This document shows, piece after piece, positions 6,056 through 16,597 of a stretch of 64,000 nt of DNA (positions are counted from its first letter, which is position 1; every line of letters begins with the position of its first letter). A program made the translations under genes and the position numbers. The notes beneath the pieces were generated by a model. It ran no database searches. It was given only the letters and a program-made list of their open reading frames with translations, and was not told the DNA's origin. Origin of the DNA: Akkermansiaceae bacterium (GTDB lineage Bacteria > Verrucomicrobiota > Verrucomicrobiia > Verrucomicrobiales > Akkermansiaceae); the NCBI GenBank assembly GCA_030725745.1, contig JANRFH010000015.1, forward strand, positions 6,932 through 70,931, in the 5' to 3' direction.

Positions 6056-6130
6056 GCGGGCGTAGCTCAGTGGTAGAGCGCCACCTTGCCAAGGTGGATG
6101 TCGTGAGTTCGAATCTCATCGCCCGCTCCA
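6056..6130 (+). tRNA. tRNA-Gly (GCC)
   Basis: A complete cloverleaf is readable. The acceptor stem is GCGGGCG at 6056-6062 pairing with CGCCCGC at 6120-6126. There is a D arm with AGTGGTA, an anticodon stem CCACC/GGTGG around TTGCCAA (anticodon GCC at 6088-6090), a T arm GTGAG-TTCGAAT-CTCAT, discriminator T, and an encoded CCA at 6128-6130. The anticodon reads GGC/GGU glycine codons. Confidence 0.97.
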
Positions 6131-11981: not shown

Positions 11982-12272
11982 TCAGGCGTCGGCGACCACT
12001 TTTGGAACGCGGACTTGTTGTTGGGATTGTTCCGGGGCGTTTCCTAGGACGAGTTCGGGATCGAGGCTCTCGTGCGGGGTGTCGTTGCGCATGATTGCTA
12101 GGTGCGAGTTTTGGTCGTTTTCCAGATCGTCGGGCAGCTCGATAGCGGTCAGGGACTCGACGTGGCCTAAGATGGATTCGAGTTGGGACTGGAAGAGGGT
12201 GACTTCCTCTTCGGTGAGATCCAAGCGGGCGAGCTTGGCGACGTAGCGGACATCGATGGAATCGTGTGACAT
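11982..12272 (-). CDS. gatC: GatC: Asp/Glu-tRNA amidotransferase subunit C
   Basis: This 96-residue linker subunit wraps around GatA and stabilises the GatCAB complex. It has the typical opening VRYVAKLARLDLTEEE, a middle LESILGHVESL and the C-terminal RNDTPHESLDPELVLGNAPE pattern that lies along GatA. The ATG at 12272 (MSHDSIDV) gives the normal length; an ATG 12 codons upstream is in frame but not needed. It is the first gene of a gatC-gatA-eboE-like-cyclophilin run. Confidence 0.93.
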   Translation of the reverse strand: MSHDSIDVRYVAKLARLDLTEEEVTLFQSQLESILGHVESLTAIELPDDLENDQNSHLAIMRNDTPHESLDPELVLGNAPEQSQQQVRVPKVVADA

Positions 12273-12450
12273 TGCGGCGAGATTTGTGGAGAGGAGCGGA
12301 AGTTGCAAGAGGTAAGAGTAAGTCTGTTTGTTGGGCGATTAGCTATCGGGCAATTTCCCTATCAAAGCCGTCTTCTGGGTTAGACAGATGATCGATACTT
12401 CAAGTTTCCTGCTAACGTTCATCTCAAAAACGGCATATTTAACTGAACGG

Positions 12451-12993
12451 ATGTATTCGGACCCCAATAAAACTAAAGAATTTGTCAGTCTCCTGACCGA
12501 TCATCAGGAGGTTCTGAAGTCGTATGTCATCGGCCAGTTGCCCGGCTGTACCGAAGTCAGGGATATTGTGCAGGAGGTGAACATCCTGCTTTGGGAGAAG
12601 ATGGATGATTTCGAGATGGGCACGAATTTCGGCACGTGGGCATGCACCTGTGCCTACTACATGGTCTGTAACTACCGTAAGAAAGTGAAGCGCAACGGTT
12701 TCCTAGTATTCTGTGACGAGCTGTCCGAAAATTTAGCTGCTCGTTCGGAGAAGAGGGTTCCTGAGGCCCTGGAAGCCAAGAGTCTGGCTCTGGCGCACTG
12801 TCTTACGAAACTGAAAGAGAGCGACAGAGTGCTTTTGAGAGCTCGCTACGATTCTCCCTCTGGCGATATGGAGAGCTTGGCAGCTGAGACAGGTCGCTCA
12901 AGGGGGGCGCTTCGGGTGGCTTTAAATCGACTCCGCGCTGTCCTGAAAAACTGCATCACTAGCCGACTTGCCATGGAAGGAGGTGCGGCGTGA
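12451..12993 (+). CDS. ECF-type sigma factor, Rhodopirellula/Verrucomicrobium family
   Basis: The 180-residue protein has sigma region 2 (EFVSLLTDHQEVLKSYV, then VRDIVQEVNILLWEKMDDF, and GTWACTCAYYMVCNYRKK) and region 4 (LKESDRVLLRARYD, ESLAAETGRSRGALRVALNRLR). This matches the ECF-like family first described in Rhodopirellula and Verrucomicrobium. The start at 12451 (MYSDPNKTKEF) fits the family; the frame also opens at an ATG at 12388. The stop overlaps the start of the next gene as GTGA, so the FecR-domain protein is translationally coupled and is the likely anti-sigma or signal partner. The PEP-CTERM gene at 14423 is a likely target. Confidence 0.9.
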   Translation: MYSDPNKTKEFVSLLTDHQEVLKSYVIGQLPGCTEVRDIVQEVNILLWEKMDDFEMGTNFGTWACTCAYYMVCNYRKKVKRNGFLVFCDELSENLAARSEKRVPEALEAKSLALAHCLTKLKESDRVLLRARYDSPSGDMESLAAETGRSRGALRVALNRLRAVLKNCITSRLAMEGGAA

Positions 12994-14360
12994 GGCCTGA
13001 GGAATTTGAATTGATGCTTTCTAGGTTGATGGATCGTGACCTTAGCGAGAAGGAATTCGAGGAATTCGAGCGGCATCTGATGAGTTCTCCGGAGGCACAG
13101 GAGCGATATTTGGATCATGTGGATGTCGAAAATCTACTTAGCCAGAAATTTGCTCCGAAAGAACTCGTAAAGCCGGGTGTTTCCAAAGTTTTCGATGTGA
13201 GCGCAGTATTACAGAAGCAAGTTCGCAAGACCTTGCGTATCTCCGCTTTTGCAGCGGCAGCTGTGGTCATGGTTTCGATGGTGTCCTTGCATTTGTTTTT
13301 TGCAGCGGATCAAGCCCCTCTTCTCGCATTTGAAACTGCTCCGGGAACGGAATTCAAGCTGACCCACAGCAAGACCCACAGGGAAACCGAGGGCATGATT
13401 TTGGAAAAAGGATCCCGTCTGGAGCTTTCCCACGGTACTGTGGAGCTTACTTTCGGCTCCGGCGTGAAGTCCATCGTCACGGCACCGGCAGATTTCTCAC
13501 TGGTGGATGATGATCTTCTCTCCTTGAGGAAAGGAACCGCTTGGTTCCATGTCCCTCAGGAAGCGGTCGGCTTCAAGGTCATTACCCCAGAACTTAATAT
13601 CGTGGATCTAGGCACGGAATTCGGGGTTCTTGCCGATGGGAAGGAATTCGACGAAGTCCATGTTTTCAAGGGAAAGGTCAAAGTCACATCCATGCGTGCG
13701 AAACGTGAAAGTGCGGAGCTATCTAAGGGTGATGCGCGGAGGATCGATCTGATCGGGCGCCTGGGTGAAATTCCAATCCAATCTTCATTGTTCGTTACGG
13801 CTCTTCCAAGGGAGTCTCCTACAGTAGTATTCGAGGATCAGTTCAATGAAGCCCTGCCAGAGTGGATCAGTACCGGCATGACCCGTTATGGTTCAGGTAA
13901 TTATTTGAACGGAGACTCGATGATAAATACCGTCGCTGAAAGCGATCATTCGGGCATTCACTTTGACCGGATGGGACGCGAGGTTCCTGCCGTTGGGGAT
14001 GGTTTTTACGCCATTGGAAGCAGCATGTCTCCACCTAGAAACTCCGTTTCAGCTGCGATTCCAGTGATTCATGGGAAGCGATACACGGTTTATTTCCGAT
14101 ATGCGGGAAGTCATAACGAAAGCCAGAGGATCACCGCCACAGTTTCGCTGGATAACGATACGGTGAGCACCGGCTCCCTCCATGCTCCCGATCAAGAGTG
14201 GGAATCCCATTCGTTTGTTTTCACTCCCCGCACATCGGGAAATGCAATCCTGACATTTGATGACTCAGGCACCTTTGGCGATCGCGACTCCGATCTGCTG
14301 CTCGACAGCGTAGTGGTGACAAGTATCCCCATTTTCTCTCCCAGACGAACGGATAAGTAA
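12990..14360 (+). CDS. FecR-domain transmembrane regulator, putative anti-sigma factor
   Basis: The 456-residue protein has a cytoplasmic N-terminal region (about 1-80) rich in Glu and Leu that would bind the sigma factor, a membrane segment at about 83-105, and a periplasmic FecR domain (SRLELSHGTVELTFGSGVKSIV, then ADFSLVDDDLLSLRKGTAWFHVP and LGTEFGV). A C-terminal beta-sandwich of about 170 residues (from VVFEDQFNEALPEW to LLDSVVV) resembles a carbohydrate-binding module. The GTG at 12990 overlaps the sigma stop and follows a strong AAGGAGG. In this phylum such pairs lie beside exported or sugar-degrading proteins; the C-terminal module could sense an outside ligand, which is inference. 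Confidence 0.85.
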   Translation: MRPEEFELMLSRLMDRDLSEKEFEEFERHLMSSPEAQERYLDHVDVENLLSQKFAPKELVKPGVSKVFDVSAVLQKQVRKTLRISAFAAAAVVMVSMVSLHLFFAADQAPLLAFETAPGTEFKLTHSKTHRETEGMILEKGSRLELSHGTVELTFGSGVKSIVTAPADFSLVDDDLLSLRKGTAWFHVPQEAVGFKVITPELNIVDLGTEFGVLADGKEFDEVHVFKGKVKVTSMRAKRESAELSKGDARRIDLIGRLGEIPIQSSLFVTALPRESPTVVFEDQFNEALPEWISTGMTRYGSGNYLNGDSMINTVAESDHSGIHFDRMGREVPAVGDGFYAIGSSMSPPRNSVSAAIPVIHGKRYTVYFRYAGSHNESQRITATVSLDNDTVSTGSLHAPDQEWESHSFVFTPRTSGNAILTFDDSGTFGDRDSDLLLDSVVVTSIPIFSPRRTDK

Positions 14361-14422
14361 AAATCCAGAATTCACTTCTGAAATTCTTGAATTGAAAAAA
14401 ACAAAAAACAAAACCAAATAAT

Positions 14423-15211
14423 ATGAAATCAACACTCGCAATCCCACTCCTCCTCGCTGCGTTGGCATCGTCCGCCCCCGGTGCCATCACTGTCGGAACC
14501 TGGATCAATATCGACTATGGGACTAGAGGTGGAACCCCTGGCGCTGGCGTGTCCTATGCCGGAGCGGTCAACACCGGACAATGGAATTCCCACAACGGCG
14601 GGCACTCTGGACCTACTACCAGGGTTGATAGTACAGGCGGAGCAGTTACTTTCGGTATATTTGCTGGTCAAAACAGCAGCGGTGGTGTCGGGAACTTTAA
14701 TCTGGCCGGCGGCAGCCCTGCTGATCTAGTTGGACAAGATTATTTATTTCTGAACAACAACGTTGCTGGCGATGTTACCCTCAACGGGAGATCAGTTGGT
14801 AGCCTCTATCGCTTTACGATCTACAATGCCACTACTGAGACCAATGGCATTGCATTGGGCCAAACCTGGAATATCACATTTTCGGGTGGCGGGGACACTG
14901 TCGGTCAAGGCTTGAACCTTGATGTCAATAATGGCGGAACGATTGTTACAGCAACCCTTCCGGGGCCAACGACGACTTCACCGTGGTCGGGCTATGCAGA
15001 CGGTGTGACCTATACCACACTCAATGGTATCAAACCAACCGAGAACGGTGCTTTCACTGAGATTGAATTCTGGATGTGGACACCCGCTGGATCAGCCACT
15101 GATGCCACTTCGGCTATAAGTGGCATCCAAATGCAACTTGTCCCAGAGCCATCCTCCGCTGCCCTTCTGGGTCTTGCCGGAATAGCTCTCCTGGCGCGTC
15201 GTAGGAGGTAA
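14423..15211 (+). CDS. PEP-CTERM surface protein
   Basis: The 262-residue exported protein has a signal peptide at about 1-20 (STLAIPLLLAALASSAPGA), a Gly/Asn/Thr-rich beta-type body without recognised domain, and a C-terminal PEP-CTERM tag: VPEPSSAALLGLAGIALLA followed by RRRR. Such tags are cut by exosortase and direct proteins to the cell envelope or extracellular polymer matrix. It lies 62 bases after the FecR-like gene and ends at a strong terminator, so the three genes form a sigma/regulator/target unit. No exosortase gene is in the window. Confidence 0.9.
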   Translation: MKSTLAIPLLLAALASSAPGAITVGTWINIDYGTRGGTPGAGVSYAGAVNTGQWNSHNGGHSGPTTRVDSTGGAVTFGIFAGQNSSGGVGNFNLAGGSPADLVGQDYLFLNNNVAGDVTLNGRSVGSLYRFTIYNATTETNGIALGQTWNITFSGGGDTVGQGLNLDVNNGGTIVTATLPGPTTTSPWSGYADGVTYTTLNGIKPTENGAFTEIEFWMWTPAGSATDATSAISGIQMQLVPEPSSAALLGLAGIALLARRRR

Positions 15212-15233
15212 CTCCTGAGCGTTCATTTCAATC

Positions 15234-15268
15234 AAGCCGCCCCATGTCAGTGGGGCGGCTTTTTTTTG
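15234..15268 (+). terminator. Rho-independent terminator of the sigma/FecR/PEP-CTERM unit
   Basis: AAGCCGCCCCA at 15234-15244 pairs with TGGGGCGGCTT at 15251-15261 around a 6-base loop, followed by a run of Ts. Confidence 0.92.
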
Positions 15269-15383
15269 CCTTATCGCTGTTTGTTATATCGTGAGCGGAG
15301 TGAACAAGCGACCCGCTTGCCCGACTTCAGGTTGCGGCGAATTTCGCGTGGCGGAGGGTGGTTTGAAATTTAGTTCAAAAACT

Positions 15384-15547
15384 TTGAACGTATTGATGAC
15401 TTGAAGGTCTATTCCCCCTGAAGACCGGCACTGCCGGCTTTCATGTAAGGGTGTAACAGCAGTTGTCTCTCGAATCCCATGGGTGTGGGTGAAGAAGATA
15501 ACTTTTATAGGCCGCCGGGGAAGGGACTCCTCGGCGGCCTTTCCTTT
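15384..15547 (+). ncRNA. candidate small RNA with own promoter and terminator
   Basis: In the 686-base gap between the PEP-CTERM gene and actA there is a promoter-like pair, TTGAAC at 15384-15389 and TCTATT at 15408-15413 (spacing 18). About 100 bases later a perfect terminator hairpin (AGGCCGCCG at 15509-15517, CGGCGGCCT at 15532-15540) and a T-rich tail follow. Between them is a small stem (CCGGCACTGCCGG at about 15426-15438) and no plausible ORF. I therefore propose a transcript of about 125 bases starting near 15420. I could not match it to 6S, SRP, tmRNA or RNase P. The rest of the gap up to 15830 shows nothing further. Confidence 0.4.
15509..15547 (+). terminator. strong terminator in the gap before the respiratory cluster
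   Basis: The 9-10 bp GC stem AGGCCGCCG/CGGCGGCCT has a short loop, followed by TTCCTTTT. No coding gene ends nearby, so it must end either a small RNA or read-through from the upstream unit. Confidence 0.75.
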
Positions 15548-15836
15548 TGTCGCTGTTGGGCACGTTGCTTTGGCAAGTTAATGTGAATTTTATTCATGAT
15601 GTCGGCCTCCATTGCGAAAATTCCGTTTGCTAATTAAAGCATTTGTGCAGCGTTTTCGCTGCTTTCTGTGTTTTTGGAGAGAATTCTGCGCATTTTTGGG
15701 CAGATTTGTGTGGCCATAGCTGAGTGGAATTGACAGTTTTCATCCTCCCACAAGTGAATTCGATCCCGGAAACGAAGCAAATCAGGCGATTTATCAGAAT
15801 CGATCAACTTTCACGAAATTTGTTTCGGAAAACGCT

Positions 15837-15852
15837 TGTGAAAAATTTCACA
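15837..15852. promoter_or_regulatory. CRP/FNR-family operator-like palindrome upstream of actA
   Basis: TGTGA-AAAATT-TCACA matches the CRP consensus TGTGA-N6-TCACA at all ten specified bases. The symmetry extends to a 22-base near-perfect palindrome at 15834-15855 (GCT...AGC). It ends 46 bases before the actA start, a position suited to control of the respiratory cluster. CRP/FNR-type regulators commonly control respiration, but no regulator gene is in the window, and a hairpin role is also possible. Confidence 0.55.
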
Positions 15853-15898
15853 AGCTCCTAATTTTCGCCCGCTTTACGGCATCTCATCTAATTTTCCC

Positions 15899-16597
15899 AT
15901 GGCGAACATCTTTCCACGCTGGTCGAACCTGCTACCCCTCAAAATCGCATTTTGCCTTGGAACCGTAGGGGCTGGTGTTGTTTTGGCCTTTAGTTACTAC
16001 GCGACGCCCAAGGCTCAAGTGGTTGGCTATCAGCCGACGCAGCCGATTCCGTTTTCTCATAAGATTCACGTTGATCAGCTCGGTCTTGATTGCCGTTATT
16101 GCCATTCCTTCGTGGATGTCGCCGGGCACTCGAACGTGCCGACCGGCAATACCTGTTGGAACTGCCACCAACACGTGCAGAAGGATAGCCCGAAGTTGGC
16201 ACCATTGCACAAGTCGATGGATGTCAATTATCCCGGATACGACGGCAAGCCGATCGAGTGGGTGCGCATCCACAAGGCTCCAGACTACGTCTATTTCAAT
16301 CACTCCGCCCACGTAAACCGGGGGATTTCCTGCCAGAGCTGCCACGGCGACGTGAACAAGATGGAAGTCGTCTATCAGGCCGAGCCGCACTCCATGGGCT
16401 GGTGCCTTGATTGCCACCGCGCACCTGAGGAGCATCTCCGCCCGCTTGAGGAAGTCTACAATCTCAACTACAGCGACGAAGACGCCAAAAAATATGTCAC
16501 CGACGGCTCCGTCGAGACCACCAAAGACCTCGGCAAGCAGCTGAAAGAAACCTTCAACGTGCATCCGAAAACGAGCTGCGCGACCTGCCACCACTAA
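15899..16597 (+). CDS. actA: ActA: pentaheme cytochrome c of alternative complex III
   Basis: The 232-residue protein has one N-terminal membrane helix (about 14-34) and five CxxCH heme sites: CRYCH (65), CWNCH (86), CQSCH (145), CLDCH (169) and CATCH (227). This number and order match ActA of alternative complex III, the quinol:electron-acceptor oxidoreductase that replaces the bc1 complex in many bacteria. The heme domain lies on the periplasmic side. It opens the actABCDEF run. The ATG at 15899 is preceded by AT-rich sequence with no Shine-Dalgarno motif, and a CRP/FNR-like palindrome lies just upstream. Confidence 0.95.
   Translation: MANIFPRWSNLLPLKIAFCLGTVGAGVVLAFSYYATPKAQVVGYQPTQPIPFSHKIHVDQLGLDCRYCHSFVDVAGHSNVPTGNTCWNCHQHVQKDSPKLAPLHKSMDVNYPGYDGKPIEWVRIHKAPDYVYFNHSAHVNRGISCQSCHGDVNKMEVVYQAEPHSMGWCLDCHRAPEEHLRPLEEVYNLNYSDEDAKKYVTDGSVETTKDLGKQLKETFNVHPKTSCATCHH

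Follow-up and report, generated by a model that had tools for sequence, protein, structure and literature searches.

Between a gene for a PEP-CTERM protein (14423-15211) and a cytochrome gene called actA (15899-16597), the 64,000-nucleotide (nt) stretch of the Akkermansiaceae contig JANRFH010000015.1 analyzed here (hereafter the window) contains a gap, in which an initial annotation made from the letters alone had placed a candidate small RNA (sRNA) at 15384-15547. This raises the question of whether the gap holds an RNA gene in its own right and, if so, what such an RNA might do. We suggest, with a probability of about 0.68, that the window carries one copy of a multi-copy family of trans-acting, seed-pairing sRNAs of the Akkermansiaceae, of the envelope-stress type.

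A duplicated unit present in several copies per genome

The closest paralogue in the same genome (C16) was 92% identical to the window over 15384-15548, with unrelated flanks. As the homology is confined to these positions, the duplicated unit consists of promoter, RNA and terminator, and the limits given by the initial annotation were nearly exact. The strong GC terminator that it described was found at 15509-15540 (13 pairs, followed by a U-rich tail); the PEP-CTERM gene has a separate one (15234-15261). The region 14500-16500 contained six terminator-like sites, versus 2.2 +/- 1.6 in shuffled sequences. The stretch between the promoter boxes and the terminator lacks open reading frames (ORFs) of at least 40 amino acids (aa) on the + strand, as had been noted, and the single antisense ORF, of 40 aa, is mechanical. 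Folding of 15415-15550 yielded -59 kcal/mol, lower than all of 200 shuffles (z -3.8). A scan of the window against Rfam release 15 revealed no family for this stretch, the only match to pass being a tRNA at 6056-6127; the sub-threshold matches were weak and all under the gathering score, the best of them (ftsZ-DE, 22.0 versus 72.2) lying on the opposite strand.

The genome of the window contains three copies, two of type A (the window copy and C16) and one of type B (C1). The type-B copy (L040, G000:C1:14815-15004) has about 27 extra bases between the promoter and helix 1, which by eye could form a hairpin. A blastn search of 59 relatives gave matches in 46 genomes at a loose limit (E 1). The strong ones all came from the same genus, often at least two per genome; copies that differed elsewhere shared about 97% identity over a core of 28 bases. 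A covariance model matched 85 of 195 family genomes, representing 9 of 16 genera and carrying at most 6 copies each, and 86 of 386 genomes of the order, where every listed match was from Akkermansiaceae. In the phylum, 18 of 387 genomes had a match; 13 of these were strong (best E 1.5e-7 or lower) and all in Akkermansiaceae. The other five, four from genomes outside the family (E 1.5e-4 to 0.005) and one from genus g19 within it (E 0.009), are about what chance would yield in 387 tests at 0.01 and were rejected. The RNA was almost absent from the many genomes of genus g19 in the order and phylum searches; searches on this scale used stricter filters, so the absences may include misses. Scanning named genomes with a pattern identified 52 stretches, in Luteolibacter marinus, L. 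pohnpeiensis, Haloferula luteola, H. rosea, a Haloferula strain and metagenome-assembled genomes of Roseibacillus. The further carriers were other Akkermansiaceae or Verrucomicrobiales bins, among which Akkermansia muciniphila and Prosthecobacter debontii are unconfirmed bin names.

Structure and covariation

A covariance model built from alignment A3, which comprised 44 type-B copies and excluded the type-A copy of the window, nevertheless matched the latter at 15417-15543 (57.4 bits, E 4e-13). Alignments A2 and A3 contained 22 and 44 of the copies known at that stage, with types A and B aligned; A1 contained 40 of 41 copies (L013 was left out), and A5 covered 100 loci with 118 matches and 113 distinct rows. 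With helix 1, helix 2 and the terminator taken as the structure, A3 had changes on both sides in 23 of 38 pairs, a result that 500 shuffles failed to reach on any of five measures. In A2 the corresponding figure was 12 of 23 pairs; on a single measure, which counts further pair types, 2 of 500 shuffles reached the observed value. A5 showed changes on both sides in 31 of 36 pairs with 88.9% of cells paired, values to be read in the light of an alignment that leans towards its model. In all three alignments the changes on both sides exceeded those of 500 out of 500 shuffles and were far above slid controls.

Four helices covary. In the 113 rows of A5, changes on both sides affected 8 of 11 pairs of helix 1 and all 11 pairs of helix 4, the terminator. 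The terminator loops differ among copies (AGGGAC, UGGGUG, GAAA, UUCG), and the loop is therefore not a conserved part of the terminator. Conservation of the stem in relatives, which the initial annotation had named as a test of its proposal, is thus borne out, and paralogue, covariance model and covariation together provide comparative support for a stand-alone sRNA gene with its own promoter and terminator. The coordinates of its parts are given in Table 1; the RNA start (near 15418-15420) was deduced from the spacing of the boxes, and the end was placed at the U-tract.

Table 1. Predicted parts of the sRNA gene in the window
Feature	Positions	Strand	Basis
-35 box TTTGAAC, ECF/sigmaE-type promoter	15383-15389	+	comparison of copies
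-10 box GTC(TAT), GTC being the conserved part	15407-15412	+	comparison of copies, sigmaE motifs
small RNA gene, predicted length about 125-130 nt	15417-15548	+	covariance-model match and paralogue homology
helix 1, 5' hairpin (UGAAG...UUUCA)	15419-15443	+	covariation and fold
unpaired linker UGUAAGGGUGUAACAGC, proposed seed	15444-15460	+	conservation, openness, complement at translation starts
helix 2 (15461-15471 with 15494-15503) and inner hairpin (15476-15489)	15461-15503	+	fold, covariation in A2, A3 and A5
helix 4 and U-rich tail, intrinsic terminator	15509-15548	+	13 pairs, covariation

The promoter

The TTGAAC (15384-15389) and TCTATT (15408-15413) boxes of the initial annotation are present in the window, but the boxes conserved among copies are slightly different, TTTGAAC and GTC(TAT), separated in the window by 17 bases from TTTGAAC to GTC. 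GAAC-N17-GTC was found upstream of 110 of 120 distinct copies, and the N18 spacing in 4 of 120. By its sequence, the motif is of the extracytoplasmic function (ECF)/sigmaE type rather than sigma-70, because its boxes fit the sigmaE boxes GGAACTTTT and GTCAAA given in the available text of PMC1804206. A sigma-70 promoter was considered and rejected: the scan of 14500-16500 found none, versus 1.8 expected, and the aligned copies keep GTC and not a TATAAT-like box. An ECF (sigmaE-type) factor would therefore, on this motif, be expected to drive the promoter; the RNA would probably begin near 15418-15420 and, through the GC-rich hairpin, end near 15548. Five marine Roseibacillus copies (L056, L061, L064, L075 and L077) share a different sequence (AAAATACTGTC...TAGGTGTTTA) in place of the boxes upstream, suggestive of a promoter exchange.

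The motif is largely restricted to the RNA. In 41 genomes of the genus, TTTGAACR-N16-GTCT had 53 matches, 33 of them on RNA copies by their coordinates; the remaining 20 were no more than the 28 of a reversed-pattern control. A looser pattern in the genome of the window gave 13 matches, including all three RNA copies, versus 14 in the control. A wider regulon of this promoter was therefore rejected, the motif being at chance level outside the RNA copies. Two closely related genomes have the strict motif ahead of a membrane-protein gene (at about position 1500 of L189 and L193); this gene might be another output of the sigma factor and was not counted as evidence.

A nearly invariant linker and its complement at translation starts

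The linker between helix 1 and helix 2 reads UGUAAGGGUG(U)AACAGC and is nearly invariant, with 1.90 bits per column over 16 columns, versus 1.10 in the stems and 0.58 in the other unpaired columns. It was more often unpaired than the remaining RNA in 119 of 120 copies (mean 0.65 versus 0.29); in the computed fold of the window copy, its AAGGG part can partly pair with the tail. Three copies (L014, L018 and L020) have a linker variant with AUGUUAGGG, and at two of them (L014 and L018) the same-strand gene about 435 bases downstream resembles, by eye, a MoxR-type ATPase. Pairing of the linker with the 3' end of 16S rRNA was no better than in shuffles (fractions 0.29 and 0.18) and was discarded.

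We propose that the folded RNA, if produced as predicted, exposes this linker as a seed, which would pair over some 10-13 bases with target mRNAs, at their ribosome-entry region or first codons; most of these mRNAs would encode secreted, surface and cell-wall proteins. Such pairing would probably block translation, and would do so without Hfq; repression rather than activation is suggested by the position of the sites alone. Hfq was found in 0 of 16 genomes (control rings: 5 of 14), and the RNA does not appear to be an Hfq-dependent sRNA.

Candidate sites were first sought with the 11-nt complement WCACCCTTACA in 10 genomes, which gave 31 sites (control: 20). Twenty-four of these were the RNA itself and seven lay elsewhere; of six of the latter that were read, four were at a start codon. 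There is a single such site in the genome of the window, located one base ahead of the ATG for a 161-aa protein whose start is signal-like. A second search covered 80 genomes, of which 59 have the RNA and 21 lack it according to model matches, and used a form of the pattern that skips nearly all RNA copies. It gave 48 sites: one (L251) was the RNA itself and was left out, 34 were in RNA-bearing and 13 in RNA-less genomes. Sites were assigned to a translation start when an ATG lay within -9 to +24 of the site and opened a frame of at least 100 codons with an upstream stop within 200 bases. Twelve of the 34 sites in RNA-bearing genomes passed this rule, versus none of the 13 in RNA-less genomes. 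The backgrounds were low (antisense strand 1/34; random positions 2166/60000, 3.6%; shuffled-pattern sites 16/173, 9.2%), and without the five discovery sites 8 of 29 were still at starts (p 0.0039 versus 9.2%). The seed is thus complementary to more start regions of envelope mRNAs than expected, a computational result with small numbers.

The position of the site is retained in diverged orthologues. In orthologues of 33% identity (L276 compared with L260, L273 and L275) it precedes the ATG by 16 bases, and in a pair with 45% identity (L242 and L268) by 18. The former four belong to a family of cysteine-bearing proteins of 131-136 aa that has no Pfam match. The candidate target genes encode mostly secreted or cell-wall proteins, with Pfam matches to Ig/cadherin/F5-8 (L242, L268), FG-GAP (L237), L,D-transpeptidase (L250), LysM (L263) and a CAP lipoprotein (L282); further matches were to an autotransporter repeat (L265, with a GTG start), a protein kinase (L243) and MraZ (L244), and the Pfam search gave none for L236, L239, L252, L260 and L276. 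Five plausible start-site matches in RNA-bearing genomes (L236, L239, L248, L265 and L276) failed the strict rule or were out of range and are outside the 12. Avoidance of the seed complement is not claimed, its scarcity being alike in genomes with the RNA (34 sites in 59) and without it (13 in 21).

Several observations, however, weigh against a seed-pairing role. The target numbers are small, and the idea of start sites arose from the first six sites seen. When the discovery sites were dropped and orthologues merged, 6 of 27 sites remained at starts (p 0.034 versus 9.2%), and the comparison of RNA-bearing with RNA-less genomes gave p 0.02 (p 0.043 with the discovery sites left out). Of the 34 complementary sites, 22 did not qualify as start-codon sites under the strict rule. 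An 8-mer scan of 1.1 Mb showed no start-codon excess for the seed (CACCCTTA 0/9; shuffles 43/1461), and duplex energies did not separate targets from random stretches. For the site in the genome of the window, the type-B copy is the best match, with 13 contiguous bases as read by eye; the type-A copy of the window itself matches less well. Promoter boxes were lacking in 6 of 120 copies, the five from marine Roseibacillus and L082. Finally, at 16-17 bases the invariant stretch exceeds the usual length of a seed and would be compatible with a protein site as well.

This last point leads to the alternative that survives best, although we consider it rather unlikely: the RNA is real, but its linker binds a protein, either a chaperone or a regulator that is titrated, and the start-codon sites are few or secondary. 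A linker conserved at 1.90 of 2 bits over 16 columns exceeds what base pairing by a seed usually needs, and 39 of the 43 exact matches that the longer core has in 41 genomes were, by coordinates, the RNA itself, with no long perfect antisense partner conserved. Against protein binding are the occurrence of the complement at translation starts (12/34 versus 0/13, with low backgrounds) and its retention in diverged orthologues. In addition, CsrA, the known protein for such decoys, was found in 0 of 16 genomes (control rings: 3 of 14), and a CsrA-titrating RNA of the CsrB/RsmZ kind was rejected for this reason.

Genomic context of the copies

A leader or riboswitch controlling the downstream gene (actA in the window) by conditional termination would also account for a promoter, a structured RNA and a terminator preceding a same-strand gene, as seen in the window and in one relative. 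The orientation of the neighboring genes contradicts it. Among 104 usable copies of 120 (16 had no flanks, and with the simple ORF calls used 38 copies overlap a mechanical ORF), 49 have their next downstream gene on the same strand, 52 have it on the opposite one and 3 have none, and these genes are of many kinds. The copies thus hold no fixed same-strand position before a regulated gene, but are independent units with an intrinsic terminator, and in tandem arrays every copy has a promoter and terminator of its own. We therefore regard a leader as very improbable. The position of the RNA before actA implies no special tie, since among the loci examined a copy is found there only in the species of the window and one relative.

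Two other explanations are even less probable. A short mRNA whose minimal ORF would be the AUG-UAA of the linker agrees with the presence of AUGUAA in 103 of 118 aligned copies, but the A of this motif belongs to the closing pair of helix 1 and is replaced by G in two copies, compensated by a change of U to C (pair of columns 3-66), four copies read AUGUUA and four AAGUAA, and the length of the linker does not change in threes. A mobile repeat without RNA function, which the several copies per genome, the clusters and the near-identical paralogues might suggest, is contradicted by the compensatory pair changes, by the conservation of promoter and linker over strong divergence and by old loci common to several species (beside gatC), and no plasmid or phage match was found.

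Many type-A copies adjoin gatC-gatA (names assigned by eye) or precede a gene like that at L031. In the window, gatC (11982-12308, minus strand, name by eye) is separated from the RNA by an ECF sigma gene, a FecR-like gene and the PEP-CTERM gene (12388-15211). Because the RNA directly adjoins gatC in many relatives, either this cassette or the RNA has moved; the ECF sigma gene (12388-12993, TIGR02989), near the RNA here, is not a conserved neighbor. In genus g23 (L150-L154), each locus has two to four RNA copies, each with its own promoter and terminator, amid very large genes of 1400-1500 codons, two of which encode Ig/laminin-G and PKD/peptidase proteins.

Relation to known systems

We found no description of this RNA in a literature search limited to open-licence papers, and it constitutes a previously undescribed RNA family representing a known kind of regulator. 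According to the available text of a 2022 review, 8 sRNAs were annotated in the Planctomycetes-Verrucomicrobia-Chlamydiae group versus 345 in Proteobacteria (PMC9029176), and base-pairing regulation there has hardly been explored. The RNA described here is conserved and multi-copy, its proposed seed can be read from the sequence, candidate targets can be named and its promoter probably responds to stress; as it occurs in culturable genera with no detectable Hfq, it would make the function and evolution of chaperone-free sRNAs directly testable. It is possible, although doubtful at present, that Verrucomicrobiota have an ECF pathway with the RNA as its chief output: the promoter is almost confined to RNA copies, and the RNA would, without Hfq or CsrA, silence surface and cell-wall mRNAs through one invariant seed, its dose being tuned by up to six-fold gene copies, in some species next to giant surface-protein genes.

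The sigmaE-dependent MicA and RybB of enterobacteria resemble the Akkermansiaceae RNA in having GAAC/GTC-type boxes, their own terminator and the 5' regions of envelope mRNAs as targets, but the available text of PMC1804206 describes them as RNAs of about 70-80 nt that work with Hfq, whereas Hfq was found in none of the 16 genomes scanned, and phylum and sequence are different. Further parallels are FoxI and FoxJ, sigmaE-dependent sRNAs of Fusobacterium nucleatum, a host without Hfq and ProQ (PMC11005410, available text). FoxJ, at about 156 nt, is comparable in length to the 125-130 nt predicted here; by description, the seeds of FoxI and FoxJ are C-rich (PMC11005410, available text), whereas the Akkermansiaceae linker is G-rich. 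Unlike them, the Akkermansiaceae RNA occurs in up to six copies per genome, and its regulation is predicted. What the two systems would have in common, as far as the available text of PMC11005410 describes FoxI and FoxJ, is a sigmaE promoter, envelope-protein mRNAs as targets (candidates in our case), a conserved seed and a host without Hfq.
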